A DNA stretch of 64,000 bases, from NCBI RefSeq assembly GCF_011397635.1, contig NC_064759.1, forward strand, positions 23,832,428 through 23,896,427, read 5' to 3'. Every line of letters starts with the position of its first letter. Position 1 is the first letter of the stretch. The notes below the pieces were generated by a model that searched no databases, was not told the origin of the DNA, and saw nothing but the letters and a program-made list of their open reading frames with translations. Shown here in pieces: positions 17,766 through 64,000 of the stretch. The position numbers and the translations under genes were made by a program. The stretch is from Epinephelus fuscoguttatus (Eukaryota; Chordata; Actinopteri; Perciformes; Serranidae).

Positions 17766-18147
17766 AGATACAGTCTTCATACGTCTGACAGAGAATTTAA
17801 GTGCCAGAAATCCACAAAACAGTGGATCTCACAGTTGCTGCATGTAGCTTTCCAACTGAATTGCATGTACAGTGGTTTTGATAGTTGTAACAACAGCTAT
17901 CAGTACATTTGATTCAAGATTGTGTACGATTTTTTTTTCTGATTTTTTTTCTGTTTCTTTTTTTTTCTGGAAATATACCAAAAGAGTGGAGAAATGTTTT
18001 ATTGCAACTTTTTGTATCTTACTGTTCTGCCTGACCCGTCTATTTCAACACAGTTTGTTTTTTGACTCAAATACCTTCTTGTGCACCACCATGGTATGCC
18101 ACACCCACTACTACTGTAATTGAATATGCACTGTCTCACTCCATTGG

Positions 18148-21500: not shown

Positions 21501-23172
21501 TGACAAAATCACACAAGATAAATCAAGCAGTTATGATTATAAGCCCAACACATAAACAGTCTGCTCGGATATATTTTGTACCCCAAGATAGATATTATGA
21601 AGAATAAATTTACATCACAGACACCTTTCAAAACCACGTTAATTTTATGTGTGTGCATCCAGAAAAGTGGATGAATCTCAGCTGTATTTTCCTACATTGT
21701 TGATTTTAATCATCTGCTTTATTATCTGTGCAGTCACAGGACAAAAAAAATGAGGATGCCATCACAGGATCCCTCCTCCATGGCCTCGACAAACAGAACA
21801 CAGAACATGGAGTGGTAAGCGCATAGAAAAGTAATACCAGGGGATCAATTTGAAATATACTGGGAGTCTATCTAATTTAACGCAAGACTAGAACTGGCAC
21901 TGAAAATGTAGTCTACTAAATGAAATGTCTTTGTGTCTCCAGCTCCTGACAGATGTTCATGTTCACATGGCCACTGTGGACCTCCTCATCGGGGGAACAG
22001 AGACTGCTGCAGCCTGGCTGAACTGGACTGTGGCGTTCCTCTTACACAGACCAGAGGCAAGGAATATCACTTAACATTAAAAAACATATTTACACATATG
22101 GAAGTTTATCTCAGTGTGTCTCTCCTCTCTTACTTCCATCTTCAGGTGCAGACAAAGGTGTATGAGGAGCTGTGCACAGTGCTTGAGGGACAATACCCCA
22201 AGTACAGTGACAGGCACAGACTTCCTGTCCTGTGCGCTCTAATTAGCGAGGTGCTCAGACTCAGGCCTGTTGCCCCGTTGGCGGTGCCGCACAGAGCCGT
22301 CAGAGACAGCAGGTCAGCTGAACGACAATATGCAGGATCCCTGGGGTTTTTAACCAGAAGTCTGGGGAACCCTAGGGATCCTTGAGAGTTTTCGGGCAAC
22401 ACAAGAAAAAGAGAAACAGTTTATTTTCGCTATTAAACTCACTACAGAAGTGAAACCATTGTGAGCAAGAGTCAAAAGAGTAACTATTCTGATCACAGGT
22501 TTCAAGTAGATACACTAGAAAGCACCAAATGTGTCTAAAGGTGTTGTTTTCAGAGTTTCTTATTTGCATCTGAATCCAGATCTGCAAAAAAGGAGTATAT
22601 AATAGTTCTATCATATAAAGTGTGTAGCTATATTGATAAACTTGGGTCCTGTCAGTCAGCAAGTATACACAAAAGCCATTTGTATGGACGCTAACACTGT
22701 TTTTATGACCCTCACGTGCCTTAAGTATTGCAGGTTACTTCATCCCTAAGAACACAGTCATCATTCCTAATCTTTTTGGAGCTCACCATGACCCTGCAGT
22801 TTGGTCTGACCCGTACAGCTTCAAACCAGGTATACTGCTCTGACTGTGAGGTGAAGTGCATTCCTTTCACTTGGCTCAGCAGATCTCAAACACAGTAGCT
22901 ACTTTCTCTCTCTTTCAGAGCGCTTTCTGGAAGGAGGAGGAGGCTCCACTCGTGCCCTGATCCCTTTCGGAGGGGGGGCTCGGCTCTGCTTGGGGGAGTC
23001 TGTCGCCAAAATGGAGCTCTTTCTGTTCACTGCCTACTTGCTGAGAGATTTCAAGTTTGTCCTTCCGGAGAGCGAGGCCTCTCTGCCAGACCTGAGAGGA
23101 GTTGCTAGTGTTGTACTAAAGGTCAAGTCCTACGCAGTTGTAGCACTACCAAGACCTGTGGCTAATCCCTGA
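18554..23172 (+). CDS. cyp21a2: Steroid 21-hydroxylase, cytochrome P450 family 21 (524 aa, 12 exons)
   Basis: Exons: 18554-18677, 19474-19665, 19778-19867, 19948-20102, 20245-20340, 20595-20705, 21321-21407, 21734-21814, 21943-22056, 22146-22312, 22726-22829, 22919-23172; 1575 nt in frame. P450 21 hydroxylates progesterone and 17-hydroxyprogesterone at C21 in the ER for corticosteroid synthesis. Visible: an N-terminal membrane anchor ([14 protein letters not shown]), a proline hinge ([11 protein letters not shown]), the I-helix oxygen-binding motif (LIGGTETAA), the K-helix ExxR (EVLRLRP), a segment close to human CYP21 (SIAGY..P..TVIIPNL) and the heme-cysteine loop [10 protein letters not shown]. 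The length is close to the mammalian 495 plus a longer N-terminus. Intron 9 appears to use a GC donor (CCAGAG, then GCAAGG). CYP17 is the nearest alternative; the SIAGY segment and the tnxb neighbour favour CYP21. Confidence 0.9.
20843..21150. mobile_element. Palindromic MITE in cyp21a2 intron 6
   Basis: The left arm (AGCAAAAATATATCAAAACA onward) is matched in reverse by the right arm ending TTTTGATATATTTTTGTTGCT. The arms are roughly 75-80 bases long with scattered mismatches. The element has no coding capacity and is a typical fold-back MITE of unassigned superfamily. Confidence 0.7.
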
Positions 23173-27479: not shown

Positions 27480-28522
27480 ATGCTCACTTTACCCTATAAT
27501 GATGGAATTCTTTATGATATTGCTTTTTTTTTCTCTATAATGTTGCTATAATTGTGACAATAACAATTATTAAATTAACAATATAAGTAAAATCACTGAT
27601 TATTTTAATTTCTCAAAAAGTGCAAGTACACAAAAATACTTTGTCACTTCCCTTGTTATAATTGTGCAAGGGCGTAGGTCAGGGGCATAAATATTGACAT
27701 TACAGGCAGTGCAATTGCAGGGGGCACCTGGGGTGGAGGGGCCTGTAGAAAGGGTGCAAGTGATTCAGATTGCCACTTTGGAAATATACCCCTGTTCAAA
27801 GATGAATGATAAAAAAAAATAATATTATTAACTTAGAAACGGTGCCATTTATTACATGTCAGTAGCCATGTAGAACAAAATTATTTCCTTTTTTTATATA
27901 AGCTAGAAAATCTATAAATATACTATGAAACGCTTCAATAAAATTATTAATTTCTTACTTTCTTTGGTATTTTTGTTACATATGCCATGATGACAGCTTG
28001 GTTATGTATGATGATGTCCAATGTCAAGTCTCTATCTGTGTCAGGACATTACATGCATTAAAAGCATGCACTAGGGCCCATCGTAACTTTGTTTATGCCA
28101 CTGAGGTAGGTTTTGTTTCAATATTGAAGAAACACATATAAAGTCAGGGGTTTTCCAGGAAATTCTGAGCATTAAAAAGTTATTTCCTGGATTTTGGTGA
28201 GTTTTTAAGCACCATTGGTGCATTTTCTGCATCAGTTTATGGTGTAAATGTATTTTATTTTGTCAAAATAAAAGTCCTCTGCTATTTTCATGTTTTTATT
28301 TGGGGGAGAACAAATTCACATGCTCTGAATATTGAGGGGGACGTCTGTGTCCTTCTCAATATCTACATGTATTTGAATATGTTCAGTTCATGATGGAGGG
28401 CCACCAACGTCCCATACCTTTAGCTTTCAGTTATATTAGTTAACTTGCTCTGATGAAGTGAATGAGATCTTCAACAGAACTATGACTTGGAGAATGAAAT
28501 GCTTTTCTGTCTTCTCCATCAG
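27480..28522. other. Intergenic or 5' intronic stretch before the plus-strand Ig receptor
   Basis: AT-rich sequence with no clear exon. The missing signal-peptide exon of the receptor should lie here or further upstream; I searched for an ATG-hydrophobic-GT pattern in the right phase and found none that I trust. Confidence 0.35.
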
Positions 28523-31060
28523 ATCATTCAGTGATGTTTGCCTTACTAGGAGGTGATATTACTTTGCCATGTGGCATACCCTCTCTTAAATCCTGCTCCT
28601 CTGTTAACTGGAACATGTCCGGAGAGTTTGGATCAGCCACTGAGATGGTGAAAGCTGGAAGAGTGGCAGCTCCGAACGCCCTCAGGCTTGGCCTGCAAAC
28701 GGATTGCTCTCTAGAGATTAATGACCTGGAGCTCAATGATGCACGACTTTACTCCTGTGGCAGTGGAACACTCAATTCAAGTGTTTCGCTTCAGATTCTT
28801 GAACGTAAGTCACTCAAAATGTTCCTGAATATGTAATGTCAATATCACAATAGTCACATGATGTTTTTTTTACATTCACCAGTCATCGAGAGGTCAACTC
28901 CTGCAGACGGCACCATAGAGCTTCACTGTTTCCTCAATATGTTTAAAGGATACGTCCCTTGTAACAACAAAGGCATACATATCAAGTGGAGCACTGAAGA
29001 CAATACACCATTAAACGGGAAAAGATTTCGCTTTGAAAATCCCTCTGAATGCTTCTCTAAACTGATCATCACTAAAAAACTGACAGATCATCACAGAAAA
29101 TGGAAATGCCAGCTGACTCAAAACAGCACAGTTAAAGCCGCCATCACTTATACAACAACACTACAAGGTAGGCTAAACTCCACTTTAGTGTACTCTAAAT
29201 GAACGATAAGACGTGCAAAGTTTGACCAGAGCTCCTCTTTTCCTCAGATGGCATAGAGGAAGTGTTTGCTGCAGTGGGTGAGTCAGTGTCACTTTCTTGT
29301 AGCAACACTTCCTCTCTTGTGGGCGGCCGCATGAAGTGGGCTGTGGGTGAAAGGATGTTGACAGATGATGCATCGCCTTATAAAGGCCAAACTGAGGCTT
29401 ATCATGTCAATAAAGACTCATCACTGGTTATTAGCAAAGTGAGTGCTGTGCATGCTGGGGACTACCAGTGTTCAGAGTCCTCTGGTCAGCAAACGGTGTT
29501 AAACAGAATCAGACTGCACACCCTCGATGGTGAGTGTTAACAATCTAAGTGCCAGAACACAGCATGAATCATGCTATATATTTGTGTTTAATTATTTCCT
29601 CTCATGTTTGCCTTTACAGTCTCTACAGAGCACGGACCAGCAGATGATAATCTCACTTTGACTTGTGTGCTTACCTGCACTACAGAATGTGGAAAAGACT
29701 TAAATTTAACCTGGTCTGGAGGTAGCCAGAACAGCTGGCAGAGCACCTTAATGAATGTGGACAACACGCTTATAAACAGCCTATTTCTCCCAGTTTCTCC
29801 AAAAAATGACGAATTAACCTGTTTTGTGCATAGAGAGGGTGAAGTGATGGCATCAAAGAAGTGGCACACTGTTAATTGTAAGTATGCCTATTGTTGCCTT
29901 TCTCCTAAATTAAACCCACACATAAGAGAAAATGCACTCTTGGATCTGAGTAAACAGAGAGAAAGTGATCGTTATTTAATGTCTACAGCTCTGCAAACAC
30001 CTGCATGGGTAGTCCTCCCTCTAGCCCTCCTGATATGTATAACCGCTGGTGGTCTTTACATTTTCATGAAGAGGAAGCACAACAAGGATGCAGGTACTGA
30101 CTCTGGTTAAGTAGCCATACAATCTGCAGAACAACTGTTACGTGAAAATGTTTCAAGAGCCTTGATGAATATGAAATAATACCTGTATGGCTGCTGTTTT
30201 CCTTCTTTTCTGTTTGCAGGAAATGAGCAGTCAAGTATTGGAATGGTAAGAGACAAAACGTATTGTAAAACTTCAATTAATAGCCCCAGCTATGAATCAC
30301 TGAAATGTACAGACCTATATTTGGGACAGGAGTCTACACGGGACAGGCCTTTAATTCCTTTCACACAAAACTGTTGCTCAGCAAACATCAGGAAATATAA
30401 TCAAATTGTTTGTTTAAACCAGTATGAATATTACTTGTATAAAAAGGCTTAAGATAACATAACAATTATGAGTCATTCATTTTATCTAGCACCAACTGAC
30501 AGCGCATCAGAGAGAGAGTAACAGCACATGTGGATTATGGCACCTGGCATATCGACATAACACCACTTTATCCAGTTAAAACAACACTCACAACTTGGAT
30601 TGATTTTTATGAAAAACCCTTTTGATTCTTCTGATCTGAGGACCCTTACAGACTAAAGGAATATGAATAACTTATAGAGTAATTGCAGAATGGACAAGTT
30701 GAGGCACCCAACAAAGCGCTTCTATACATCCGAATATCTTCCATTAAAAAATGAACTGCTTAGCAACCAGACCAGGCGTCTAATTGAGATAGACTTTAAT
30801 TTGTCAAAATGTGTAGCCACACCAGGCTAGAAAAAGAGACTGGGCCTTTAGTTGAAGTTTTACAGTGACTGTGCTACAAGTAACTTTTGTCGGCCTGATT
30901 TACCAAAATGCTATAACTGCAGTATTCCTCTCCACAGACTCATGTATATGAAGTCATCCAGGATGCACATAATGAGGAACTACACCAGCAAAGACAAAAC
31001 AAAGGAGCAGCCGCTACCACCACTGACAGTTTCTATGATTTGTTACAGGCTGTTAACTAA
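28523..31060 (+). CDS. Four-Ig-domain transmembrane receptor with ITIM-like tail (5' end missing from model)
   Basis: Exons: 28523-28804, 28883-29167, 29248-29529, 29620-29877, 29989-30093, 30220-30245, 30938-31060; at least 453 codons. The first five are in phase 1-1, one Ig domain each for the first four. Domain cores: D1 ITLPCG...LYSCG, D2 IELHCF...WKCQLT, D3 VSLSCS...DYQCSE, D4 LTLTCV...LTCFVH. The fifth exon encodes a single transmembrane helix (WVVLPLALLICITAGGLYIF) and a basic stop. The tail has VYEVI and SFYDLL; the second fits the ITIM consensus SxYxxL. Mammalian receptors with the V-C2-V-C2 plan include CD4, LAG3 and SLAMF3/Ly9; I cannot tell which, if any, is the orthologue. The likely role is an inhibitory leukocyte surface receptor. 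The signal-peptide exon was not found. The stop codon TAA at 31058 overlaps an AATAAA at 31060. Confidence 0.75.
30261..30868. mobile_element. TIR element, short copy, in the last intron of the plus-strand Ig receptor
   Basis: The ends TATTGTAAAACTTCAATTAA and TTTAGTTGAAGTTTTACAGT are inverted. The body is collinear with 25348-26432, sharing for example ACCCTTACAGACTAAAGGAA, but lacks that copy's central 480 bases. It has no coding capacity. Confidence 0.65.
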
Positions 31061-31461: not shown

Positions 31462-33112
31462 CTAATACCGGACTGCAATGAAGAAGAGACATTAGTTACT
31501 TGGCTATTCTGATATAATGAAAATAAAAGTAGGATTTTATAATAGTACTTACAAGTGCACGGGCCTTCTTCCGGGACTTCTTGGTATATGCTGTTGACTC
31601 GGTTTGAACGATCTGTGAGATAGAAAGTCATCCATAAGCAAGAGAGGTCACAGTGGCTTGACTGAAGAAGTTAGAGAATAGCACGGTGCATTGCTCACCT
31701 TCTGAAAGTGTAAGACTCACAATCTCATAACCACCAAGAGTACCTGATCGAAGACAAGAGAACATGAAGCTACGATAACACTTCACTGCAGCCATTTGCT
31801 TTCAACATTAATGAAGACATAGATCAAACCTCCTGGGTAGCTCAGGGTCTGCTGTGGCACTCTGGGGGTGTTACATCTGCGGTAAATGAACAGTCCTATC
31901 AGTGCAGCCATTATGGCAATCCCAATAATGACTGAAGCTACCACTGCAATAAATGCTCCACTGCTCTCCTCTTTCTCGGGTTCTGAAATAATCTCAGTGT
32001 TTGTCAGTGTTGTCAGTGCTAGGGAAGACAGGAAACAGATCTCAGTGATAAAAACACCATTTAATTGCAGCTTAATTAAGATGTACAGTATTTTTGGAAT
32101 ACCTGGAGCAGTTGTGGTCACAGCAACATCTTCCACTTCTTACAGGAAATAGAAAAGTTACATAAGAGTTATGCATATTGTCATTTGCTGTCAGATTTAC
32201 CAAATAGTTTAGAATCTTACCTTGAACCAGTAGCTTAATGTCAAAGCAGCGCCGAGTTTGTCTAAGCATGTACTCACATCTGTACCACTGACTGTCACTG
32301 TAATTCACAGACTGGAAAGCTAATGCGGTCTCATTAACTACAACCCCCTTAGAGGTGATAGGTACAGGCTTGCCTCCTATTAGCATTGCCCAGGAGATAT
32401 TTTGGGGTCCTTGTTGTTTTGATGTTATTTCCACTGGACAGTTAAGGTTAAAGGGTGTGCTGGGTGCTGCTGTCACTGCTGCTGGCACTTTGCAGTCTGA
32501 AAGAGGCAAATTTATGTTATAGTACATGAGTGGGATTTATTTATAAAAGAGCAAGAATAAAGAGAATATAATGTGTAGTATTACCTCTTACTCTTAAAGA
32601 TATGTTTTTCACAAGAATGCATTCCCAGCCTTGCCAGATTTCACATCTGTACAGTCCCTCATCAGATTTTCGTGACTTTGTCAGAGTGACAGACATTTGT
32701 CCATTTGCATCAGCCTTCAATTTTACACGTTCGGCATCCTGGAATTCAGGCGTTTCCGGCCTGGCAAAGATAACCTTCATCCGGCTGGCATTTGTGGCAT
32801 TAATCAGTTTGAATCTGAGGCAGCTCTTTGGATCCATTACATTAGAATCAGCACAAGGGAGAGCTACATCTTCTTCTTGAGAAACAACCACAGGCATAGA
32901 TGGGCGCTCTTTAAGAAATAAAGATTAGACTCAGAGCAGATATTGTATGTAGGGATTTGAGAAAGCGTACACCAAATACTTCCTCTGTCACAGAAAAAAC
33001 ATAAAATACACACTGAATGTGGTAAAAAAGATTCAGCCTACTCACCTTTGCACGCTGATATGACTGTCAACAGAACTGACAGCAGGAGAACCTGTGGATT
33101 ACAATGTGCCAT
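31462..33112 (-). CDS. Two-Ig-domain transmembrane receptor with ITIM-like tail (335 aa, 8 exons)
   Basis: Exons on the minus strand: 33112-33046, 32908-32585, 32496-32221, 32138-32103, 32018-31830, 31743-31699, 31612-31553, 31472-31462; 1008 nt in frame. Residues 1-22 form a signal peptide (MAHCNPQVLLLSVLLTVISA). Ig domain 1 has VALPCAD...GLYRCEIW; Ig domain 2 has FNLNCPV...WYRCEYM. A short Thr-rich stalk follows, then one transmembrane helix (FIAVVASVIIGIAIMAALIG). The tail contains YEIV and SIYQEV; the latter fits the ITIM consensus SxYxxV. The last exon adds only FRY before the stop. The gene is tail-to-tail with the four-Ig receptor, which also has an ITIM-like tail. A leukocyte inhibitory receptor is the likely role, by inference from architecture. 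I do not recognise the gene. The exon 5 donor (GTTTGA) is weak, so tail splicing may vary. Confidence 0.75.
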
Positions 33113-49700: not shown

Positions 49701-51581
49701 CTTTTGCTGGCGAGCATTTTTTTTTTTTTCTTAACAATAACTAACAATGCCTGCACAGTAGACCTTTAACTACCCAGTGCAGTATTGTGTTTGAGTGGTA
49801 AGTGTATTTTATCTGTCTGAAGGCTGCTGCATAGCAGTTATGAAATGAAAACTTCACTAATTTGAAGTAACAGGTCAGGAAGTAGCTGGACCAGTTCTGC
49901 TGCTGCATGTCAAATGTGCAAACCAGCGATATTATCAGTGTTTACTCTTCTCACAGTTGGGTCAATACATGATTGAAGGTTAAGTACAATGACAAACTGG
50001 CTTGTAAAACTGAGCACGAACAGTATTGTGTCCACTCCACTGGGCAAACAACATTTGACCGGTGTCATATTGTTGAATGCTTACATCAAAAATGTTGTAC
50101 AATTGTTCTGATTCATCTCCTCACTACAGACGCTAAGCTGTCAGATTTGCTTTGCTTTGATTTTAACTCTAATGCATCCTGACAATATGATTTACTTGGG
50201 GCCATTTATCTCCAACTGTAAAAATGCTTTGTGTCCCAACAGTTAAGCTGCAGTTGTTAATCTCTCGCCAAAAGGCATGTGAAATGAACCTCGGTAGATT
50301 ACACTTACACTTACATAGATTACTATGCAATTATATTAGTTTTATTGTGTGATCCTGTGATAGCTACATTATTTTTTAAAATAGGGAGAGTGGGACAAAA
50401 ACTGCTGATACAACTGTGAATGAGGCCTTGTCTCTTTATGAGAAAACAAATGTGACTTGGAGGGAGCAGCAGCCAAAAAAGGTCAAAGCAGTGTGAAAAG
50501 AAAGGTGAGCAAAGCATAAAGTATTGAAAGCAGAAAGGAAGCTCATCAGTGAAGGTGGGACAGAGGAGAGGGGGAAAAGGTAAATTCTGCTCATTGTCAG
50601 CAGAACGTGCAGAAATTAATCGCAGAGTCATGCGGTAAATTTTCAATGTCAGGTCTGTCAGTCATGCAATACAAACACGTCAGGGTTCAGAGGCATCCGA
50701 GGCAGATGACATGAACCAAAGTGAGTTCTCAGAGAGTGGACAACCTGTCCCAAAGATGCCTCGCCCACATCAGTCTTTCAGTGACAGAACAAAAGTACAG
50801 ACCCTATTCACAACAAGTCCAACAGCATTCTTCATACACATGCATGTGCTGCATACCACATGCTATCTCCTTGAATAGGTCCGTACATGCACACACGATC
50901 CACTGCACTCAGACTGTAAGAGAACCAAGAATGACAACTGGAAGAGCCTGATCCCTTCTTCTACCAATTTCTCTTGTATGAATATATTCATCATGTAAAA
51001 GAATAGAATCCAATGCACATATTCAAAGTTCAAAATTAAACAAACGTTTACAAATTACTATCAAACAAGACGTTAGCAAGAATTTCAGGTTCTTCTGTTC
51101 CATCATGAATCCATGCACACTGCTCATACCAGTGCATTGTTTTCCAATCGAGTACAATAATCTCTGAGCCATGGAAAACAAACATGATAACGCAAGTATA
51201 AACACAGCTTTAACCTAGTCAGCTCAGGAATTGTTAGTCTCCATGATAATTTTCTAATTCAGTTTAAATTAAAAATGTTTTGCTCGGTTAGCTCCAACTC
51301 CTGAACAGGCAGACTCAGGTTAAACCAATTAAAAAGGATTTGGTGGCGAGTGGTTTTTGTAGGAGACTTACCCCATCTGCACTGGGCAGAGGTTGACCAT
51401 TGATGCCCAGGGTGCGGAACGGAGAGTGCGTGGAGAGGCGCTTGTCCCACTCACTGGGCCTGCTCTCCGGTGCGGCTTCCATGAAGTTCCTCTTCAGCTC
51501 GCTGATGTTGGCGTGATGCCTGAGCAGGTCCTCCTGAGGCTTTTCGAAATCCTATACAGAGGAAAGTCAAGAGGGGAAAGA

Positions 51582-53690: not shown

Positions 53691-56600
53691 TTTATCATGT
53701 CATCTAAAGCCACTCATTAACGCTGGTGCAAAAAGTGTGAATCATGCCACATGCAAGCGTGATATTAAACAGCGGCCGTTGTGCCAAAGAGCAAGAAAAT
53801 ACAGACAGAGACTGACGTCTCCAAAAGGGATACAAACCTCCAACATTAAAAGGCTATGTCTTATATAAATTGAGTCACCCTCAATTTTCTTAGCTCTTTT
53901 CTGTGAAAAATGAAAAGAAAAAAAAAGTGTGGGTTTGTTTCAGTTCCCCTGTGTGCTGGCATTGAGCTGCCATACGTTGGACATGCATACTATGAAATTC
54001 ACTCAGTGTTAATACAACAGACAAACAGAGCTGTGAGGAGTCTGCATGCAAAATAGTCTAAGACAAAGTGACCATAAAGGCCAATCTGCAACGTACTAAC
54101 AAAACAATAAACCTAAGACTAAAGAGGACTGACGTAAGATTTCTACTCTCATAACGAAAAAGAAAAACGAACAGTGGAGTGACAGAAATGTGATAAAACA
54201 CCAGTTATCATGCCACCTTTTTTTAGTAAAGTGCACAAATCTATAGTCATGCATGTGTGCATTCCAGGGTTTACAACAACAGCAAGCAATGAGAGGAAAT
54301 GAATGCCTTTCCAACAGCTTATGTGTAAAAGCATAGTCTCTTTATATTAATGTCGTATTATTCTATTAACACCAGGTACTCAATGTTTACATATTCCATT
54401 TATTCATTTCTCTACCTCTTAAAATATATTTTATGTGCATCGAACCTGATGTGGATTTCATTTAAGACCTAGCCGTATGGAAGCACAACATGAGAAGAGG
54501 GTGAGATTAGTCTTTTGGATGAGAAGCTCGACATCATCAGAATGGAGGTGGAGAAATGGCTGCGGAAACGTATACGAGGCTAAAGAGTCTGACCTTTCGC
54601 ATTCGCACCACCTCCGTGATCGACACCTCAGACTCGTGCTAGCCCGGGGAGGAGAGAGGGACACGAGTTAGCATCCTCTGCTTGTCGGCTTTACATCTCA
54701 GCCATAGTGGAAACAAGTCTTCTACAAAGGGGCCACATGCAAGAGGCCAGCGTCTGACACTAACCTGAATGTCCCCATTGATGGTGGATATCAGTGAAGA
54801 GTCTACTTCTCTCTGGTCCCTCCACACTGCTGGCTACAGCAGCAAGAGACACAGTTCACACTCAGACACAGAGAACAATCTCTGCTCCCTTCTTAAGCAT
54901 ATTTTATCATCAAAGACTATGAAGCAATATCATTTAAAACAGGTCTTCATATTTTATCATTATCTACAATCAAACTACCCAGGCAATCACTATGAGGACA
55001 CATTATAAATAATTTGTTGGTGTTTCACTGGCACCAGCTATCCTATTAGGCATGTATGGTTTACACACACATATGATGCCACATTTTTCCTGCACATTAA
55101 CATTTAGATTGAAATTACAGCACAAACATGTAAAAGATTGATCAGAGTGAAATTGAATACCTTGACCTCAGACACAGCCTCGATTTTGGAAGGCTCCACC
55201 GCTTCTACGGTAACCTCCAGCTTTCTGTCCTCTTGGCGGCTGGTCTTGATTGGAGTGGAGGTCTGGGGTTGATCGAGAGGAGCCATGGGGATCCCTGCCT
55301 CGGCCAGAGCAGCCTGGGAGAAGACCGGAGCACTGACAGGACGGGTGCCCCTCTGTGTGCTCACCACTAGGCCAAAAACAGACGGAACAGAAATGTAAAT
55401 AAAAGGAAATATGTTTCAGTACAGTGCGTTATGGTTGGATAAGATTGTATGCAGATGATCAAATCCCCTAAGTGAGTAAAAGCACAGTGAAAAAGTTAAA
55501 CATACAAATACAGTTAACACACAATAGCGCATCTTCGCAACATCATACTTACAGTCTCACGTCTCGATGTGATCAGAAAAATGCACACACTGCAGGGTAT
55601 ACCTACCTCAATTGTTGTGTTTAGTCTCTTTTAAAAGGACAAGCGCAAGTCAGAACCTGAGGTGGGCCAGAAGCAAATATCCAAAAAGTGGTATGAGAGC
55701 AAAAGCATGGATTAGTTCTTGTTGCAATCCGATGATAAATGCAAAGGCAGATGACGTTAGGCTGCAAAAGAGCTGCCAGCTCCATGTGGCTGAACTGGTG
55801 AAATGCTGAGATTCTGCAAAACAAAGCACGGCAAGAGGTTCTTGAATGATGCCGAATGTGCATCTCTGCTCACATTCACTTGTGGAGCAAAAGTCATTGT
55901 ATCCTATAAACAGGCTGCAAATGTTGCCAAGCGTTTCATGGAGCAAGGAAAGTGCAACCACACGTGTGAGAAGCTCATCTGCAAAAAAGATAACAAACCC
56001 AAACAGGTGAGAAATACCTGACTCCTTGAGGCCACCATCTAGTAGAACAAACCAATCAGCGTTGACATGCGTCTGTGTGACTGGACGTCTTTCCTCTAGG
56101 ATCCGTTTCTCAAAATATGGTCTCTGCTCAGAAATAGCAATCCTCGTTTTGGCCACAGCAGTTGGAGCTCTCACTGCTGCTGGGAACTGGACACGTTGAG
56201 GGGCGGCGACTAATACAAATACACAACCAGGTGTTATTGTGGAAATAAAGTACAAAATACTGGGACATTTGCGTTTATAGTGAAACAGATTACCCTGCTC
56301 AGTCGAAGTAAAACTGTTACCTAAATTTAACAAACTCAAATAAAAATGTTTGCATGTAAAGGCTGGCTAAATAATTTTTTATTATACCTGATTTCTTAGC
56401 GGCCACATCCAGAAGAATAAACCAATCATCGTCCACCTCTCTCACTACTGGACGTGGCTTCTGCTGCACCACCTTCTCCTGTTGCCACCTCTCCTCCACT
56501 ACGGTAACTCTGTTCTGCACTCTCTGCTCTACAGCTGCAAACTCTTTAGCTGGTCTTACTTCAGGATATGTACGGATACGCTGATCCACAGCCACTAATG

Positions 56601-59600
56601 CAGAATACACACAAAGCTTTCTCAGTCAGATCACAATTTTTCTTAAAGGTAATGAACATGGTAAGATATGTAGTAAAACTGCAGTGAAAACACAGACACC
56701 ATGTTGTTGTCTGATTCTGTCTCACAGTAGCAGCCGCACAAAAACAGCAGAATACCTGGAACTTTTGCTGCAACATCTAGCAGCACAAACCAGTCATCAT
56801 CCACCTGTCTCGGCTGCGGTGGTTTAATCTCCACCAACTTCACAGAGGGCCTCACATCTTCTATGATGACTGGTTTTGGTTTAGTAGCTGGCATCACATC
56901 CACAATACGCCTAACCACAGCAACTAACACAGAGAAATAAGGGTAAATAAACCTGATGCAAAATTATTTGATATATTTAATACCTCTATCATTTTTAATA
57001 TCACATGAAATTTCATATTGTGATATTATTTTAGGCCATATCTCCCACCCCCAGTTCAGTCACCACTCAACTAAACTTTTTAGCACAGTGTATGCAGACA
57101 TGTGGCAATGAAAGGTACCTGGCGGTATGACAACAGGCTTTTCACGGATGATGTCAAACAGGACAAACCAATCATCTCCTCCTTCTCTCTCGGACGGCGG
57201 TGCAACTTGTGAAGGTCTAATTTGAGACAGACGTGTCTCATCTTGCCTGCTGTCCACACCAATTATCATCTTCTTCCATGTTGTGGTCTCTGTGGTTGTC
57301 ACCTCAAGATCAAACATCTTCCTCTTATCCGGAATAATCTCAACAGGAGTAACTGGCACAAACAGACAGAGTCAATGAAGCTGAGCGACACAAGTATATC
57401 TGCTGAACATAGCAAGTTACAAGCTGCAGAAATTGGCAAAGGGTAAAGTCTTTAAATATAACGCTTCAGAGTGAATTCTGATGGGGTGCAAACAAAAGCC
57501 CCTTTCACACATGCGCTGCAAACCTGAAATTATCTAGAAATCACATGGAGGAGCTGTATGTGAGGACGCAAATGTCCAAAACAGTTGGATCGGACATTAA
57601 ACAGACTTTACATTGCCCGCTCTTTCGTAAAATAAGTGTAATGTCTGACTGACGAGTGAATAGAGCAGGTAATTGTCCGGAGAATTCACAGCTAACGAAT
57701 GGACATGTTGATGATATTTCTATCATGTGGCTTGAGTAAAATTGGAAGAAAGCAAACATCCAAGGGTGAAGAACAAGGGTCATTTTCTCGAACATGACAA
57801 CGAAAATGTCTAACTGGAGAGATGACGAGATTCTGGAACTTCTGTTGTCAAGGGCCGTAGGCAAAATCTTCAGACAAATTAAAGAAATGGCAAGAGACTC
57901 TGCTGTGTATGACCAAATTACGAACCAGCTATGGGACCGAAGTGTAATCCGTATCACGTCATGCCTCCTGCACGCTCTACCCAGGCACCACCCCTCACCT
58001 AAACCAAACAGAGCATTCCCAGGAAATGAGAATAGAAAATTTCCTGTCGTGTGCTACATGTGTGAAAGGGAAACTCGGGACAATGTCCAGACCTGCTTCA
58101 CCGGATATTGTCCGGAGTTCATATGAGAAAACGGCTGTATATTATATACCTGATGGTGCTATGACTGCCTCTTCACGAACGGCATCAAACCACACAAACC
58201 AGTCATCATCTCTCTCTGGCAGCGGCTGGGAAGGCTGCAGTCTAATCTGGTCAAGATCAACCTGCTGCGGCTTCTGCTTTATGCTTATCACTTCAACTCG
58301 AGGTTGAACACTTGGATAAATTTGGCTTGGTTTTGCCGGAGGAACTGAAAGCAAACAAATTATACTCAAGCTTCAGAAAAAGTGAAGAAAGACCTCCTAT
58401 TTATACAGTTTAACAACAGAACTAATCTCTGAATCGTCTGAGTGACACCCAGTTCACTTGTAAGATAATCTGCTTTGGTGTGATAATATGTGTGAAGAAA
58501 AACCAAAGAAGGCTGTGGGTACCTGGAGGTACGTAGGCAGTTCCTCTGGGAACAACATCCAGCAAAAGAAACCAGTCGTCATCTCTTTCGATGACTGGCT
58601 GGGATATTTTCTGCTGTGCTCTTTCCTCTGTCTGCACCACCATGTCTTCAACTACGACCTCCTTCCTGGACTCTACCGTTCTCATTTCAGCCACAGTAGA
58701 AATTCTTTCTTCAGGATAAACCTGAACATACTCGGCCTTTGTAACTAATGACAAACAGAATTATGAATGAGTATTGTAAGACATTTATAACAAGCTTGCA
58801 AGTCTTAATGGTGGGTCTTGAGTGAAAGTTGCCAATACCTGGTGGCACATATGATGGTTCTCTAGTGGGAACATCCAGCAGCACAAACCAGTCATCTTCT
58901 ATCTCTCTCACAGCCGGTGGCAGTGCTACTACTTGCTTCACATCCAGCACTTGATCTATTTTTGTGTCTACCACCACCTTCACTCTTTCTTCTCTCTGCT
59001 CAATGGTTGTAATTTCAACTACAGAGACATGTTCTTCTGGGGACACTTCAACACGCTCTGCAGCAGCAACTAAGACAAAAGGGATGAAAATCTTCAGATG
59101 CTTTGGACAGTACAGGGGATTTAAGGATAAGAGCATCTGCAGAGCTCAGGATAATTGCTTGCTTTGATACAGCTGTGTAGCAGTATGAGGGATTTTCACA
59201 ATACCTGGTGGTACGTATGGAGTTTCTCTGGGAACAACATCCAGCAACACAAACCAGTCATCATCTCTGTTTATCACTGGCTGTTGTGGGATTTCTTGTA
59301 GGTATCTTGGTGCCTCTTGTACAACTTCTACCTCTCTAATCTCCTCCTTGGTTGCAATTTGAGCCACAGAGACAAAACTTTCTGCCTCTATCTGGTCACT
59401 TTCCTTCAGGGTAACTGCTATGAGTAAAGTCAGGAGAGATTCTTTTAACACAAGCAGTGATACACACTTCCTGTATGCGCAGAATTAAGTACAACAGAGC
59501 CAGCATTTTAGCAATACCTGGAGGTACATATGGAGCTTCTCTGGGAACAACATCCAGCAACACAAACCAGTCATCATCTCTGTTTATCACTGGCTGTTGT

Positions 59601-62600
59601 GGGATTTCTTGTAGATATCTTGGCACCTCCTCTATTATCTTTCTCTCTTCAGCTACTGCTTCTCTAATCTCCTCCTCGGTTGCAGTTTGAGCCACAGAGA
59701 CATATACTTCTGTATCAATCTGGTCTCCTTCCTTCCAGGTAACTGATATGAGTAAAGTTGGGAGAAAGTCTTTTAACACAAGCAGTAATACACACTTCCT
59801 GTATATTCGCAAGCAAGCTCAAAATACAGCACAGGACAGCCAAAGTTTTGAAAAGCAGTACAGGTTTTTTTTTCAGCAGTACCTGGTGGTACATATGATG
59901 TTTCTCTGGGAACGGCATCCCATAACAAAAACCAGTCGTCATCTCTTTCAATGAGAATCTGTGGGGGTGGGATCTCTGGTATACGCCATACTTCCTCTTC
60001 TCTTGTTTGTGTCTCTTCTACTGTATTCTCAGTTTTCTCCTGAACTGTTGTAATCTCAGTGTCTGAGGAGAAATACTTGCCTTCATCCACCTGAGCACGT
60101 TCCACCCTGGTAACTAATGATGACAGTAAAGACACAGAATCTTTGAACATGGGAGCAAACATGCAGTGTAAAAAAGCTCACGGTAAAGCTGTAATTCCAC
60201 TGCATGGTACAGCTGACTGACCCACTTCTTTTGGTACCAGGTACTTTTTTTTACGTTATAGTAACCCCTTAGTGTGGGTGGAATTGTTAGCTGATTGTCA
60301 AAGTGGCGCCGCATGAAACTGCTATGACACAATCTTGCACGTGACACAAACATACAAAAAATGGAGGATATCAAAGGGATTGTGTTCTTGATCCTCAGCA
60401 TGTGTCTGTTTGTCACAGCAAGGAGAAAGACTTTGTATCAGAAAAGGCTGAGGGCAGTATTTCTTTTAAATGTTTAAAATGTCAATCAGTTGACAACAAA
60501 AGCTTGGCTATTCAAAATGATGGGTTTGTACAGGACAGTGTTGTGCAAATGGCAATTCAGTGGTGTTTTAGCTCCACCTTTTACCAGGTACTATCCACAA
60601 CTTCTGCTAATGGAAAACGAGTTGAGTCGAGTAAAGCTGAGTTGTACCATGGTGGTATAAGTGAAGCGGGACAGGGTGTGCAAGAAACTTTTTCCAAAGT
60701 ATAGATATTACTAAGACTGCAAATCCGTCGTCAAGCATCAAAAACACCTCACTGCAGCGGGTGACAAACCCATTTTCAGGAAAAGCACAACAAACTAGTT
60801 GGTTATGTTGGTGTTTTGGTGCACACAGGCACACGAGTTACATGGTTATGAGTGAGGTTTCAGGTTTGAGAGGAGTGCTCTTTGTGGGTTAGTCTGTTCA
60901 TCTGATGACTGAAAAACAACCCTTTAAATTCCCACAAACGTTCTGTATGTACCTGAAAAATAAAGGCTACGGTTGTTTGCTATGATACCCATATTTTCAC
61001 CCCTTCTGCAAAATTAGGACATCTACATCGACCAAATTTGCTGTCTGCTACACTGCCATTACTTTCTCTCCACTGTTTCTGCCTGAGTATAACCCAGAAT
61101 TAAACCGAGCACAGACCGACCTTTCACAAATGTCAAATGACATTTATAAGAGAAAGGGAAGGGCAATCAAAACAAACCTGTTAACTTCTCCTTTCATTGA
61201 AAAGAAAAGAGGGTTTTATAAACAGCAGCTGATTTCTCACTTGTTAATGTACACAGCACACAAAAAGTATTCGAGAGGAAAATGGTAGTGATATTAGCAA
61301 GATTAGCAGAAGTCTGAAGCTGTTTGCACAATGCCATACTGTACCTGGTGGCGTGAAAACAGCTTTGTACGGAGGGCGGTCAAAAACTATGTACCAGATG
61401 TCCTCATCTGCCACCTGAGATTGATCCTCAGCCTGACGCCTCTCTGTAACTTCTCCCTCAGTAATCTCCTCCAGTGTTTCTGTCTTACGCCATGTCCCCA
61501 CTGTTTCTAGCCTCTCCTCTGACATTACACTGCGCTGTACCTGCACATCTTCCACAGCTTCCTGCTTCTGCCCTCTCTCCTCTACAATAGTCACCCTCTT
61601 CTTAATCCTACGCTCCACCTTCTGGTATGTAACAACAGAAGTGGTAGTGGCAACATCTGAAGATCCTGACTTCAGCTCCTCCATCACCTTGTCTGTCCAT
61701 TCCTTTTCCATCTGACGTAGCTTTTCTCTCATGCTATCATCTGAAAGACTCTCTTCTGTCACTTCTTTTTCACTCTCCTGCTTCACCACGACTTTCCATT
61801 CCTTTTCTATCTGACCTTGCCTTTCTCCCAAGCCATCATCTGACAGACTCTCTTCTGTCACTTCTTTTTCACTCTCCTGCTTCACCTCGACTTCTTCCTC
61901 CTCTGGCAACAAGCCCTTCAAAAACACCTGCTTTATCTGCTCTTCCAATTCATCTACTTCATCCTCTTTTGTCTCGACCGTGCTCACAGATTTCCTCAAG
62001 ACGTTTTCTGCGATACGTGCAGCTTGTATTTGTTGTTGCTGCTCCAATTCTCTCTCTTCCTCTTTTAACTTCTCTACCTCTTCCTTACCCAACTCCACTT
62101 CTATTACTTCCTGAAGTCTTTCTGCCATCTCATCCACTTCTTGGAGCCTTTCCTCTAAATCCTTAACTTCTTTCAGCCTCTTTTCCAAAACAACTGCCTC
62201 TTTCAGCTTGTCTACCATGGTCACAGTTTCCTGCAGCCTCTCAATGACCTCCACATTGGTCAGGTTCTGCTCTGTGACAAGCATGCCCTGCTCATCCTCC
62301 TCCTGGAGCTGGAACTGAGTTTGGGGAGGGACTGGGAGGGAAAGCAAAACAATAAGCCATGAAAGGAACTAAAATGTGATTCAATTTACAGGCTGTTCAT
62401 TTGTTTTTGTACCAACAGTGCTCAAACTCCATACGTCATATTTCCACACAAAGAAACTCACATGGTTTCTCAACACGCTCGAATGAAGATAGGCTGAAGA
62501 ATCGGTCAAAGTAAAGGTACCAGTCATCTTGCTGTGTCAGTGCTGGGAACAACAGCCGGTCCAAAGAGCTTGTTTTTGCCAAGCTGAGCTTAGCTGACAA

Positions 62601-64000
62601 CATCAGAGAAACAACACTGAATAATTTTGTACCAGATAAGCACACACACACAAATCTCAAATTGTAATACGGGGCAGAGTAGCACCCCATGCTCAGTTTT
62701 TGTAATAGCCTTTGAAAATAATGCAGTGTACATGTAGTGTTATCATTCATTAGGTGCACGCTGGTCACAATAAAATAACATTTAGATGCAAGATCTTTAA
62801 AAGCCAAGCCAAAATGAGAGATAGAGAATCTGGGTTCAGATTTAAAAGTGCAAATACCTGGCTGTTTCACAGAATCAAAAGATGGGACAAAGGGAAAAGG
62901 AGTTTGACGATGGAACAGAACGGACCACTCATCTTCATTTCTCATCTGCTGTTGTACATCAGATGCCAGCTCCTGCCACGGCTGACTGACTGTCTGGGTG
63001 GTGGTGGTTTGAGAGCCAGTCTGCCCAGCCTCAGTGTCCTGCCAGGTTACTGTGACTGTGTGAACAGACTGCCCTTCCTCCCTGGACTCAATGAAAGTCT
63101 GCTCAGACTCCCCTCTGGCTGTGAAGAGATGACGAGTTGACGGCAATTATGTAATGGTAGTGCTGTAGAGATGACAGCCACTGTGAAGGCTTCACAGTGC
63201 TTCAAGCGTATTTTTGACCAAGCCAGACGCCAGGCACTTGTGCCAGACTATTGTGAGTCCACTAAGCCGAGGTTAGTACAAAGCTGAATGAAAGATGCCT
63301 TTCATCCTTTACAACAAGAACAGATGCAAAGGACAAATGAATGCAACTGTGCAACACACAACTTCTGAAAAAGCCAAAAAAAATCTGAAACAGCAGCCTC
63401 AAGACTGGCAATGCCTGTGTGTACTTAAGCATGTGAGGAACCTATTTTTCCTTTCAGAGTGACCGGAGATACCCTGGGATCATGCCAGGGAAAGTATAAG
63501 GAGGGTGACATTACCCTCGTGCCAGAGTAGGTCAGCATTCTGACAAGTAAACCATCTGTGCCGCAGCTGACAATGTTTTCAAAAGGATTACAGACATGAA
63601 AGCAAACGAGCCAGAACGGATGAGCACGTTAGATGATTTGAAAAGGCTGTTTGCAAGCGAGAATAAATGTTGAAAATATGCCAAAAAGCGCTGGTGCGGC
63701 TCCACACAGTTCCTGGTACCTTGGAATTCAGGAGAATGCTGAGGTTTGTCAGATGTCAGCTGCAGCGACAAATCATCAACCTCAGAGCTGGTTGATGCTG
63801 AGAATTGCTGCGGGTACTGGAGAGTTTCATCTCCAGCTGCAAGAGCGAAACAAGCCAGAGAGTAGTTTATCGAACTCGTGCCTTTTATACAATGATTCCA
63901 ACACGGGTTCACACACATACACATGGACATACCTCCATCTAGGTTACGGGACAGCCTCTTGCTAGCAGAGCGTGTGAAGCGAGGGGCCGGGCGGTCAATC
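43741..64000 (-). CDS. epb41: Protein 4.1 (4.1R type), 3' part of the gene; partial, FERM exons lie beyond the window
   Basis: Protein 4.1 links spectrin-actin to membrane proteins through FERM, spectrin-actin-binding (SAB) and C-terminal (CTD) domains. Exons on the minus strand, 5' to 3': 64000-63933 (partial), 63836-63720, thirteen module exons 63118-56018 (listed separately), 55366-55161, 54833-54765, optional 54638-54594, 51551-51372, optional terminal 48440-48384, 46599-46210, 45690-45568, 45336-45217, 45114-45034, and a doubtful last exon 43770-43741. Conserved marks: RPAPRF...SKRLSRNLDG after FERM; RPVSAP; NISELKRNFME and RPSEWDKRLSTHSPFRT in the SAB-CTD linker; VQTQTIT, EVPIVPTKTF and ETRVEKRIVITADSDID in the CTD. 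The wording STHSPFRTL points to 4.1R rather than 4.1N. A 1187-residue insertion is made of module exons. The symbol is for the family; which teleost paralogue (a or b) is not determined. Confidence 0.85.
43838..44043 (-). repeat. Dispersed teleost repeat
   Basis: It contains CTTTATGCTAAGCTAAGCTA and ends with TTTCCCAAAATGTCAGACTC before TTGCTTTAA. I recognise it as a very common fish repeat in reverse orientation (normally opening with a word like TTTGACATTTTGGGAAATA). No coding capacity. Confidence 0.6.
44796..44965. repeat. Possible hAT-like MITE remnant
   Basis: CTAGTCGACTAGTC at 44831-44844 and CGACTAGTTGATTAAAAATT near 44923 give inverted words around a short core. The ends are unclear. 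Confidence 0.3.
45034..45690 (-). CDS. epb41 C-terminal domain exons (three exons, 41 + 40 + 27 aa)
   Basis: Exons 45690-45568, 45336-45217 and 45114-45034 are all phase 0. They encode PPLVQTQTITITAV, EVPIVPTKTFIYESSK, SSETTSGTTVTTTTTHISK and STETRVEKRIVITADSDID. This is the CTD that in mammals binds NuMA and membrane partners. Relative to mammals the core EVPIV(H/P)T and ETR(I/V)EKRIVIT are kept, while the linker VAVDGTDEDKDN is diverged. Simple TTTTA/AAAAT repeats (45140-45180) and an A/T homopolymer (45343-45358) flank the exons. Confidence 0.85.
46210..46599 (-). CDS. epb41 acidic exon before the CTD (130 aa)
   Basis: The exon opens after TTTTTTAG and ends CFQ before GTAGCC, phase 0 to 0, so it joins cleanly to the PPLVQTQ exon. 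It is rich in Glu and Pro (LEEESCDQEEVVVFE, IQEEEESYPD) with no known fold. Mammalian 4.1G and 4.1B have acidic inserts at this place, which I take as the closest comparison. It is likely to be an optional exon. Confidence 0.65.
48384..48440 (-). CDS. Possible alternative terminal exon of epb41 (18 aa)
   Basis: A pyrimidine-rich CCTCCTCCCCCTCAG acceptor opens a phase-0 frame FVIRLPRGPLLDFYSKRS followed by TGA. It would follow the SAB-linker exon ending PLPSADG and give a protein without CTD. A donor-like CACAG/GTGTGAG occurs 36 bases after the stop. No homologue is known to me; support rests on the splice signals and clean phase. Confidence 0.4.
   Translation of the reverse strand, partial: FVIRLPRGPLLDFYSKRS
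49290..49615 (-). repeat. Dispersed teleost repeat in epb41 intron
   Basis: It contains TTTGTGCCAAATTTGAGGAA, GAGATATTGTATTCACGAGA and AACCCAAAAACATAATGCCT, words I associate with an abundant fish repeat. The minus-strand frames over it are not genes. Confidence 0.5.
51372..51551 (-). CDS. epb41 SAB-to-CTD linker exon (60 aa)
   Basis: Phase 0 to 0. It encodes DFEKPQEDLLRHHANISEL, then KRNFMEAAPESRPSEWDKRL and STHSPFRTLGINGQPLP. In mammalian 4.1R the equivalent reads D(L)DK.QEEIKKHHANISEL and so on, one of the best conserved parts of the SAB region. This exon is the key evidence that the gene is 4.1R-like. A TG repeat sits 32 bases upstream of its acceptor. Confidence 0.93.
51583..51635. repeat. 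TG microsatellite with G run
   Basis: About 19 GT units pass into a run of 12 G. On the minus strand this is a C-run and (CA)n just upstream of the acceptor of the exon at 51551, a position where CA repeats are known to influence splicing through hnRNP L. Confidence 0.9.
52098..52690. mobile_element. MITE with CTCTGAGACC inverted ends
   Basis: The left end TTAGCCCTCTGAGACCTGTG is inverted at the right end (GGTGGGTCTCAGAGGGTTAG). A different repeat word block (52250-52292, with CCGGGGTTACGTTTGTAACC) seems inserted or carried inside. Superfamily not assigned. Confidence 0.65.
53258..53493. mobile_element. Short hAT-like MITE (236 bp)
   Basis: The ends TAGGGCTGCACGATAT and ATATTGTGCAGCCCTA are inverted repeats. 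The flanking octamers TTATGAAC and ATGTGAAC match at 6 of 8 positions, compatible with an aged hAT target duplication. Confidence 0.75.
53653..53686. repeat. CA microsatellite
   Basis: Seventeen CA units in an epb41 intron. Confidence 0.95.
54594..54638 (-). CDS. Possible 15-aa microexon of epb41
   Basis: An acceptor CCCGGGCTAG opens HESEVSITEVVRMRK, phase 0, followed by the donor GTCAGA. It falls between the two SAB-region exons, where mammalian 4.1R has its regulated 21-residue exon, but the sequence is not alike. The frame and length (45 nt) allow optional inclusion. Confidence 0.4.
54765..54833 (-). CDS. epb41 SAB-region exon (23 aa)
   Basis: It encodes PAVWRDQREVDSSLISTING and DIQ, phase 0 to 0. 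The end (V....EV...IS.INGDIQ) lines up with the mammalian 4.1R exon that ends TSNGDQTQ. Placement before the NISELKR exon agrees with that. Confidence 0.65.
55161..55366 (-). CDS. epb41 exon after the module array (69 aa)
   Basis: Phase 1 at the start and 0 at the end. It encodes RGTRPVSAPVFSQAALAEAG and a Lys/Glu-rich end. In mammalian 4.1R a comparable stretch (RPTSAP...GQVAEGG) directly follows the SLDG exon. Here fourteen extra exons separate the two, which dates the array as an insertion between formerly adjacent exons. Confidence 0.8.
56018..56209 (-). CDS. epb41 module exon 13 (64 aa)
   Basis: The final module. Its end motif is VNADWFVLLDGGLKESG, in which the first acidic residues are altered and the PPG end is lost. 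It opens VAAPQRVQFPAAV. Confidence 0.8.
56388..56594 (-). CDS. epb41 module exon 12 (69 aa)
   Basis: The end motif is REVDDDWFILLDVAAKKSG. Its middle, RVTVVEERWQQE, resembles part of the giant exon 3 (RVTIVEERGQKQE), linking that exon to the array. Confidence 0.82.
56756..56923 (-). CDS. epb41 module exon 11 (56 aa)
   Basis: The second shortest module after exon 2. Its end motif is QVDDDWFVLLDVAAKVPG, and the DVAAK ending is shared only with exon 12, so 11 and 12 look like sister copies. Confidence 0.82.
57119..57352 (-). CDS. epb41 module exon 10 (78 aa)
   Basis: The end motif is EGGDDWFVLFDIIREKPVV then IPPG. Its N-terminal half (VTTTETTTWKK) is Thr-rich. A Harbinger-like element lies in the intron before it. 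Confidence 0.82.
57497..58136 (+). mobile_element. Harbinger-like non-autonomous element with Myb/SANT-like frame
   Basis: The ends AGCCCCTTTCACACATG and CATATGAGAAAACGGCT are inverted at 13 of 17 positions, and TTGTCCGGAG occurs near both ends. An internal frame at 57794-58126 reads MSNWRDDEILELL, FRQIKEMARDSAVYDQI and LWDRSVIRIT, the layout of Myb/SANT-like proteins carried by PIF/Harbinger transposons. There is no transposase. The element ends only 13 bases from the splice donor of module exon 9. Confidence 0.65.
58150..58344 (-). CDS. epb41 module exon 9 (65 aa)
   Basis: The end motif is ERDDDWFVWFDAVREEAVI then APSG. The N-terminal half is Gln/Pro-rich (LDQIRLQPSQPLP) rather than acidic. 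Confidence 0.82.
58523..58744 (-). CDS. epb41 module exon 8 (74 aa)
   Basis: The end motif is ERDDDWFLLLDVVPRGTAY then VPPG. The middle is VEDMVVQTEERAQQKISQPV. Confidence 0.83.
58839..59069 (-). CDS. epb41 module exon 7 (77 aa)
   Basis: The end motif is EIEDDWFVLLDVPTREPSY then VPPG. The front, VEVSPEEHVSVVEITTIEQR, shows the recurring E(E/K)xxSVxEIxT pattern best. Confidence 0.83.
59205..59414 (-). CDS. epb41 module exon 6 (70 aa)
   Basis: Nearly identical at its end to exon 5 (RYLQEIPQQPVINRDDDWFV), with the following intron also alike. A 15-base in-frame length difference in the middle separates the two. Confidence 0.85.
59518..59742 (-). CDS. epb41 module exon 5 (75 aa)
   Basis: The end motif is NRDDDWFVLLDVVPREAPY then VPPG. 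The front, VSVAQTATEEEIREAV, matches exon 6 closely. It is part of the youngest duplication in the array. Confidence 0.85.
59883..60113 (-). CDS. epb41 module exon 4 (77 aa)
   Basis: The end motif is ERDDDWFLLWDAVPRETSY then VPPG. It opens VTRVERAQVDEGKYFSSD. It is the first of the regularly spaced modules. Confidence 0.83.
60195..60656. mobile_element. MITE-like repeat between module exons 3 and 4
   Basis: The left end TTCCACTGCATGGTACAGCT is matched inversely near the right end (AGCTGAGTTGTACCATGG), imperfectly. The forward frame over its right half is not a gene. Borders are approximate. Confidence 0.45.
61345..62331 (-). CDS. epb41 module exon 3, giant charged exon (329 aa)
   Basis: It opens PPQTQFQLQEEDEQG, then about 100 residues of Leu/Glu/Lys/Gln heptad-like sequence (ERLQEV, EKRLKEVKDLEERL), probably coiled coil. 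It holds a 33-residue tandem duplication (units share VKQESEKEVTEESLSDD; 99-bp period near 61700-61895). It ends with a diverged module motif DEDIWYIVFDRPPYKAVFTP then PG. It is phase 1-1 like the rest. Confidence 0.82.
62462..62542 (-). CDS. epb41 module exon 2, short (27 aa)
   Basis: It encodes little more than the end motif: ALTQQDDWYLYFDRFFSLSS and FERVEKP. The acceptor chosen (GTTCCCAG) keeps phase 1; a nearer AG would break the phase. The donor is CCAT then GTGAG. Confidence 0.65.
62858..63118 (-). CDS. epb41 module exon 1 (87 aa)
   Basis: It opens ARGESEQTFIESREEGQSV, with a Thr/Gln-rich middle, and ends with the most diverged motif NEDEWSVLFHRQTPFPFVPS before KQPG. The acceptor is TCTCTTCACAG and the donor CCAG then GTATTTG. 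Confidence 0.78.
63720..63836 (-). CDS. epb41 extra exon before the array (39 aa)
   Basis: Phase 1-1. It encodes AGDETLQYPQQFSASTSSEV, then LQLTSDKPQHSPEF. It lacks the DDWF motif, but follows the SLDG exon and shares the phase, so it is probably the ancestral entry point or an unrelated optional exon. Confidence 0.65.
63933..64000 (-). CDS. epb41 exon after the FERM domain (cut by the window edge)
   Basis: It encodes DRPAPRFTRSASKRLSRNL then DG, ending in phase 1. This matches the FERM-adjacent segment RPAP.F.R..SKR.SRSLDG shared by 4.1R, 4.1G, 4.1B and 4.1N. The rest of the exon and the FERM domain lie to the right of the window. Confidence 0.88.

Follow-up and report, generated by a model that had tools for sequence, protein, structure and literature searches.

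In mammals, the 4.1R exon that ends in SRNLDG and the exon with RPVSAP are adjacent, and we know of no W motif in canonical human 4.1R. The PEVK array of titin is made of many small in-frame exons and is disordered and rich in P, E, V and K, and in the ankyrins the LIR is acidic and lies in a disordered tail. The main mammalian 4.1R forms are described as proteins of 80 and 135 kDa, and the role of exon 16 is treated in the same source (PMC10887211). In camelids, a disordered insert together with exon 14, located in the same region of 4.1R that is considered here, is reported to stabilize the skeleton (PMC9926112). The LIR rule, as given in PMC7564214, is an aromatic residue followed by two residues and L, I or V, with a W in the aromatic place and preceding acidic residues helping, and the W1989R variant of ankyrin-G is reported there to fail to bind GABARAP. 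Among fishes, epb41b serves to mark erythroid cells in zebrafish (PMC8790037; PMC10493226), is placed in a catfish spleen cluster beside erythroid genes (PMC11426453), and is given as the merlot/chablis gene (PMC10245139), the mutants of which are described as having elliptical, poorly deformable red cells (PMC6765189); it also appears in the gene list of a hair-cell study (PMC5939014), so that its expression need not be erythroid only. Two zebrafish 4.1R papers, one of them on cardiac isoforms with unique structures (PMID 17569566, 20887560), are cited in PMC3166722 and may cover part of what is reported here; among the fish 4.1R papers listed in our searches, none describes the array in its title or abstract, and no paper with DDDWFVLLD or DDWFVLL was found in the texts searched.

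We analyzed a window of 64,000 nt (the whole stretch of DNA presented) from Epinephelus fuscoguttatus, in which the SRNLDG and RPVSAP exons of a 4.1R gene flank 14 array exons on the minus strand (56018-63836; Table 1). The first-pass annotation had placed 14 extra exons between these same outer borders, all of phase 1-1 and with lengths that are multiples of three, and on these points it was confirmed: all 14 carry an AG acceptor and a GT donor, and one open frame runs through them when they are joined. Its description of 13 exons ending in variants of DDDWFVLLD...PPG stood in part, i.e., a W motif lies near the end of 13 of the 14 exons, but PP before the split G codon closes only seven of them (exons 4-9 and 11), exons 2, 3, 10 and 12-14 having other endings. 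The exon sizes could likewise be kept for all but exon 3, which had been given as 81 nt. This short form (62462-62542) is possible, but 132 nt is more likely because the residues encoded by 62543-62593 are present in the Epinephelus lanceolatus protein P0001, and similar ones in Myripristis and Osmerus; therefore the array more likely encodes 1204 residues than the 1187 first counted. Exon 1 reads EVDDLSLQL in the window, EVDDWFMML in Myripristis and EDDDWFFML in Salmo (P0065 and P0124), so that all 14 exons look like modules, the window copy showing that the W can be lost. Exon 4 contains a 99-bp tandem repeat in two copies (61696-61893), with further copies in P0001, and P, E, V and K make up 41.7% of the residues of window modules 5-14, the ones counted. 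In the exon-4 region, stretches of the GGHFYKEGQLM type separate the coil from the W modules in salmon (Salmo, P0124) and in pike (Esox, P0144), the latter having two of them. A plus-strand ORF of 118 residues (57770-58126), in the intron that follows array exon 10, looks by eye like a transposon remnant and has no Pfam match.

Table 1. Exons of the 4.1R gene and of its array in the window (module cores in one-letter code)
Feature	Position	Strand	Remark
Upstream 4.1R exon ending SRNLDG	63933..64000	-	cut by window end; donor GAG|gtatgt
Array exon 1, 117 nt	63720..63836	-	worn module, W absent here
Array exon 2, 261 nt	62858..63118	-	EDEWSVLFH
Array exon 3, 132 nt	62462..62593	-	QDDWYLYFD; 132-nt form by P0001
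Array exon 4, 987 nt	61345..62331	-	EDIWYIVFD; Glu-rich, coiled-coil-like by eye
Array exon 5, 231 nt	59883..60113	-	DDDWFLLWD
Array exon 6, 225 nt	59518..59742	-	DDDWFVLLD
Array exon 7, 210 nt	59205..59414	-	DDDWFVLLD; tandem copy related to exon 6
Array exon 8, 231 nt	58839..59069	-	EDDWFVLLD
Array exon 9, 222 nt	58523..58744	-	DDDWFLLLD
Array exon 10, 195 nt	58150..58344	-	DDDWFVWFD
Array exon 11, 234 nt	57119..57352	-	GDDWFVLFD
Array exon 12, 168 nt	56756..56923	-	DDDWFVLLD
Array exon 13, 207 nt	56388..56594	-	DDDWFILLD
Array exon 14, 192 nt	56018..56209	-	NADWFVLLD
Downstream 4.1R exon with RPVSAP	55161..55366	-	sequence read
Stretch coding QKRAKKIEGDSIYIRHSLLMLE	53838..53903	-	21-residue exon at SAB start, like mammalian exon 16
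SAB exon	51372..51551	-	DFEKP...PLPSADG

The FERM part of the gene lies outside the window, and the host gene was identified with P0001, the closest protein among the matches listed (97% identity over the region searched) and a model of 2027 residues with the FERM domain at its start. In a structure-sequence comparison, the P0001 FERM scored 523 bits against 4.1R (1gg3) and 445 bits against 4.1B, no chain named 4.1G or 4.1N being among the 60 matches listed. Furthermore, P0001 matched 53903-53838, 51551-51336 and 45693-45562, which places SAB and C-terminal domain exons downstream in the window; the 21-residue exon that opens SAB is absent from some relatives' isoforms. Both the assignment to protein 4.1 and the position of the array between the FERM/FA and SAB parts, as first proposed, are thereby upheld, and by sequence comparison the host is a fish 4.1R. 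It is probably the teleost epb41b, to judge from the names of ostariophysan relatives: the array proteins P0156 and P0160 carry the name protein 4.1b. In these two proteins the FERM appeared much diverged by eye, with the W modules kept. Elsewhere in the window, a tenascin-like gene (fn3, fibrinogen C; 11021-17785, plus strand) is followed by P450 exons (21924-23169, plus strand), an arrangement that we take to be reminiscent of the TNXB-CYP21A2 neighbourhood, and immunoglobulin V-set domains, perhaps of receptor genes, are found at 28498-28833 (plus) and 32544-32924 (minus).

Two protein searches gave 259 and 263 matches, and every named protein among the best 120 listed from each was from a fish; many of those listed were named titin-like, protein 4.1 or uncharacterized. 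A titin identity was rejected, since no titin domain was found in the array at the Pfam cut-offs and the matches listed mostly carry 4.1 domains. A third search, with a short profile and with proteins of moderate length as the only candidates, gave 26 matches, of which 20 have 4.1 domains (Pfam) and all 24 named ones are from fishes, including Xyrauchen, Triplophysa, Labeo, Hoplias and three sturgeon records. When 63 proteins (62 species, of which rainbow trout contributed two loci) chosen from the 151 collected were tallied, the array was present in the same gene in 62 of 62 teleost species, with 7 to 13 modules per protein and 728 modules overall. Motifs of the same type occur in four ostariophysan fishes and in the three sturgeon records, P0161-P0163, each of which has four motifs in an insert of 161 residues at the corresponding position (SRSLDG/RPVSAP); the sturgeon matches are weak (E-values of 0.004, 0.06 and 0.4) and were assigned by motif and site, read by eye, P0162 being flagged by its source as unverified contamination. 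No tetrapod was among the named matches listed, in searches that would be likely to miss a protein with one module only. The motif that the first-pass annotation had proposed to look for in teleost paralogues and other vertebrates was thus found in many teleost homologues and in the sturgeon insert, and the reading frame, the loss of which in relatives it had taken as a sign of disuse, is kept together with module order and core in many teleosts. As read from these proteins, which are already in public databases, the array is a tandem motif-exon array of 4.1R; it is not a grouper peculiarity and is widespread in teleosts.

Across the 728 modules the core reads D-D-W-F-[VIL]-L-[LF]-D, with D-2 in 95%, D-1 in 82%, F+1 in 85%, L+3 in 83%, L or F at +4 in 96% and D+5 in 84%; because the modules were collected by a profile of the window motifs and by patterns that require W with acidic and hydrophobic neighbours, these percentages are upper bounds, biased upward, and the 100% at W largely follows from that choice. 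Mean column identity, which depends less on how the modules were collected, was calculated on 40 of 45 aligned proteins, without salmonids, pike and smelt and with core columns taken from the 12 P0001 cores; it was 0.903 in the core (96 columns), 0.704 in the linkers (1078 of 1183 columns) and 0.957 in the FERM, and misaligned repeats may have lowered the linker value. The order of the modules, assigned by best match to the window exons, was free of inversions in 50 of the 63 proteins; five showed a single inversion, and eight (salmonids, pike, smelt and medaka) two or three. The core looks like a candidate short linear docking motif, apparently more conserved than its linkers.

Predicted structures pointed in the same direction as the docking-peptide look noted at first pass. 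AlphaFold models had no folded domain in the array and no structure at the cores: one module, for which the nine others of modules 5-14 served as the alignment, reached a pLDDT of 57, and in a 937-residue stickleback model (modules, SAB and C-terminal domain; 45 sequences) the array was mostly below 50. The exception was a linker helix at residues 545-570, where block means rose as high as 76; the SAB part, beyond the array, has a predicted helix at 767-788. The arm is therefore modelled as mostly disordered, with a pLDDT below 50 around the stickleback cores that places the candidate motifs in predicted disorder, as is asked of a LIR. A Pfam search of the array returned no family at the cut-offs, and an Rfam search of the window was empty. 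Against solved structures, one module gave chance-level matches only (E 3 to 9), the core profile and the core peptide gave none, and a scan of viral contigs with one module found no relative.

The array would have grown by exon duplication to about a dozen related in-frame exons. Exons 6 and 7 are 85% similar over a stretch of 301 bp that takes in some of the intron upstream of each, and hence derive from a recent tandem exon duplication; with a dN of 0.11 and a dS of 0.27 over 70 codons, the pair gives a weak sign of constraint. The few sturgeon motifs fit a growth from a shorter array, and loss in sturgeon would account for them as well.

In order to compare isoforms, which are database models, 22 gene groups were used. 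Whole modules are absent in frame from some predicted isoforms: Larimichthys X9 has no counterpart of two exon-6/7-type modules and Larimichthys X8 none of exons 12+13, exon 14 is absent from Perca flavescens X6 and exon 1 from Micropterus X4, and blocks of two to four modules are absent in Plectropomus, Sphaeramia, Toxotes and Salmo. For 7 of the 22 groups, no difference within the array was seen among the listed isoforms, and small skips are undercounted because the database merges sequences at 90% identity. A junction survey of 129 proteins with both flanks (of 163 collected), in which single-isoform entries cannot separate loss from skipping, found the SRNLDG-type end joined straight to exon 5 in four species (P0025, P0064, P0093 and P0109) and exon 1 joined to exon 5 in four others (P0013, P0017, P0080 and P0105). 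The first-pass annotation had stated that any combination of exons can be spliced in or out. The frame would permit this, but the skips seen are either blocks (exons 1-4, 2-4, two to four neighbouring modules, or 12+13) or confined to one exon at an end of the array (exon 1 or exon 14), so that free combination is not supported by the predicted isoforms. Thirteen of the 14 array donors are without G at +5, and their mean score is 1.1; seven other exon ends of the gene, scored at the best GT nearby, ranged from 0.0 to 5.4, three of them being as low as those of the array (0.0, 0.2 and 0.6), and weak donors may have been inherited by all copies. In the array introns (56018-63836, minus strand), TGCATG was seen once against 3.0 expected and TGTGTG 13 times against 3.7 expected, the latter perhaps in simple repeats.

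The reading that we prefer, with a probability of about 0.7 whatever the partner, is that the array forms a multivalent docking arm between the FERM/FA part and the spectrin-actin-binding domain. The V2/U2 linker of fish 4.1R would encode a long, mostly disordered arm, each core would dock on a partner that has a hydrophobic groove bordered by basic residues, and the many copies would provide avidity; whole-module splicing would set the number of docking sites and presumably the reach.

As to the partner, odds not far from even go to something other than the ATG8 proteins, namely a protein that reads the core as an amphipathic-helix motif (W-F-x-L-L), an endocytic adaptor/clathrin site or an intramolecular FERM ligand, a share that is the remainder of the figure for the docking arm and is not added to it. 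Hydrophobic residues at positions 0, 1, 3 and 4 with a freer +2 would suit a helix face, and in 11 of the 38 modules from ostariophysans and sturgeons +2 is taken by Q, T, E or N; V or I at +2 in the teleosts favours a strand instead, and the models are without a helix at the core. A clathrin-box-like pattern, with other hydrophobic residues allowed in first place, is present in 526 of the 728 modules and W...[FYL] in 696. The clathrin box proper (L-Phi-x-Phi-D/E) was discarded as a candidate, with 5 of 728 modules and none of the 13 in the window, and LxxIxE (27), SIM (12) and the kinesin W-acidic pattern (0) also argue against such partners among the 728. The ATG8 proteins (LC3/GABARAP) as main partner are our leading guess, because the core obeys the LIR rule and ankyrin-G and ankyrin-B bind GABARAP in that way, and we regard it as tentative, with the odds against it. 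A LIR core with an acidic neighbour was found in 617 of the 728 teleost modules and in 11 of the 13 of the window; the 35 of 38 ostariophysan and sturgeon modules (six proteins) with a LIR core say little, since they were picked by a filter that requires a hydrophobic +3. The stricter xLIR pattern was matched by 11 of 728, 2 of 38 and 0 of 13 window modules, mostly because F is fixed at +1. The putative motif has +4 more strictly hydrophobic than +3, and F+1, L/F+4 and D+5, which are not LIR requirements, speak for a longer or different motif. A further and unlikely proposal is that about a dozen ATG8-binding motifs, their number set by splicing, would make 4.1R of the fish red-cell skeleton a multivalent platform for LC3/GABARAP beneath the membrane, through which receptor trafficking or organelle clearance would be linked to spectrin and actin.

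The docking arm was also weighed against other readings of the array. The array might directly tune the strength of the spectrin-actin-4.1 complex, as the camelid Pro/Glu plus exon-14 insert does; it lies in the same linker region and is likewise disordered and spliced, and epb41b serves as an erythroid marker in zebrafish. The alpaca insert is reported to raise ternary complex formation, but according to the same source PE alone is inactive and e14 is needed (PMC9926112), and we consider this quite unlikely. Less probable again is that the arm serves chiefly as an entropic spacer or spring of the PEVK type, with motifs that matter little or only stick to themselves: the predicted disorder, the P/E/V/K content and the titin-like names in the source records would agree with it, but an eight-residue W core at 90% identity against 70% in the linkers, and the same core in sturgeon and grouper, would be unexpected. 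Passive expansion, with functionless exon duplicates that are spliced out or tolerated, draws on the recent exon 6/7 duplication and on the models without exons 1-4 or 2-4, and is very improbable against the maintenance of frame, order and core in many teleosts and the weak sign of constraint on that exon pair.

With close to 2000 residues, the fish 4.1R would contain a long unexplored section of a protein central to the skeleton, in which a docking-like motif recurs about a dozen times and which has a putative four-motif forerunner in sturgeon. A docking arm of this kind can be tested in a standard animal, because zebrafish epb41b marks erythroid cells and the merlot/chablis mutants have a red-cell disease.

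When compared with known systems, the grouper gene resembles 4.1R in that FERM, FA, SAB and C-terminal domains are all present in the E. lanceolatus protein (Pfam), and differs from it by the addition of about 1200 residues in the V2 linker. With the titin PEVK array it shares the many small in-frame exons, the predicted disorder and the richness in P, E, V and K, but nearly every fish module has a W core and the host is a 4.1 protein. The camelid 4.1R90 PE-e14 insert is, similarly, a disordered and spliced addition between FERM and SAB; it is of about 30 residues, however, and the passages that describe it in PMC9926112 mention no W motif. The giant ankyrins, in which AnkG and AnkB bind GABARAP, provide the likeness of a membrane-skeleton adaptor with a W-centred LIR (PMC7564214), but there the LIR has a helical extension, whereas the fish 4.1R array would offer about a dozen motifs with F fixed at +1 as candidate binding sites.
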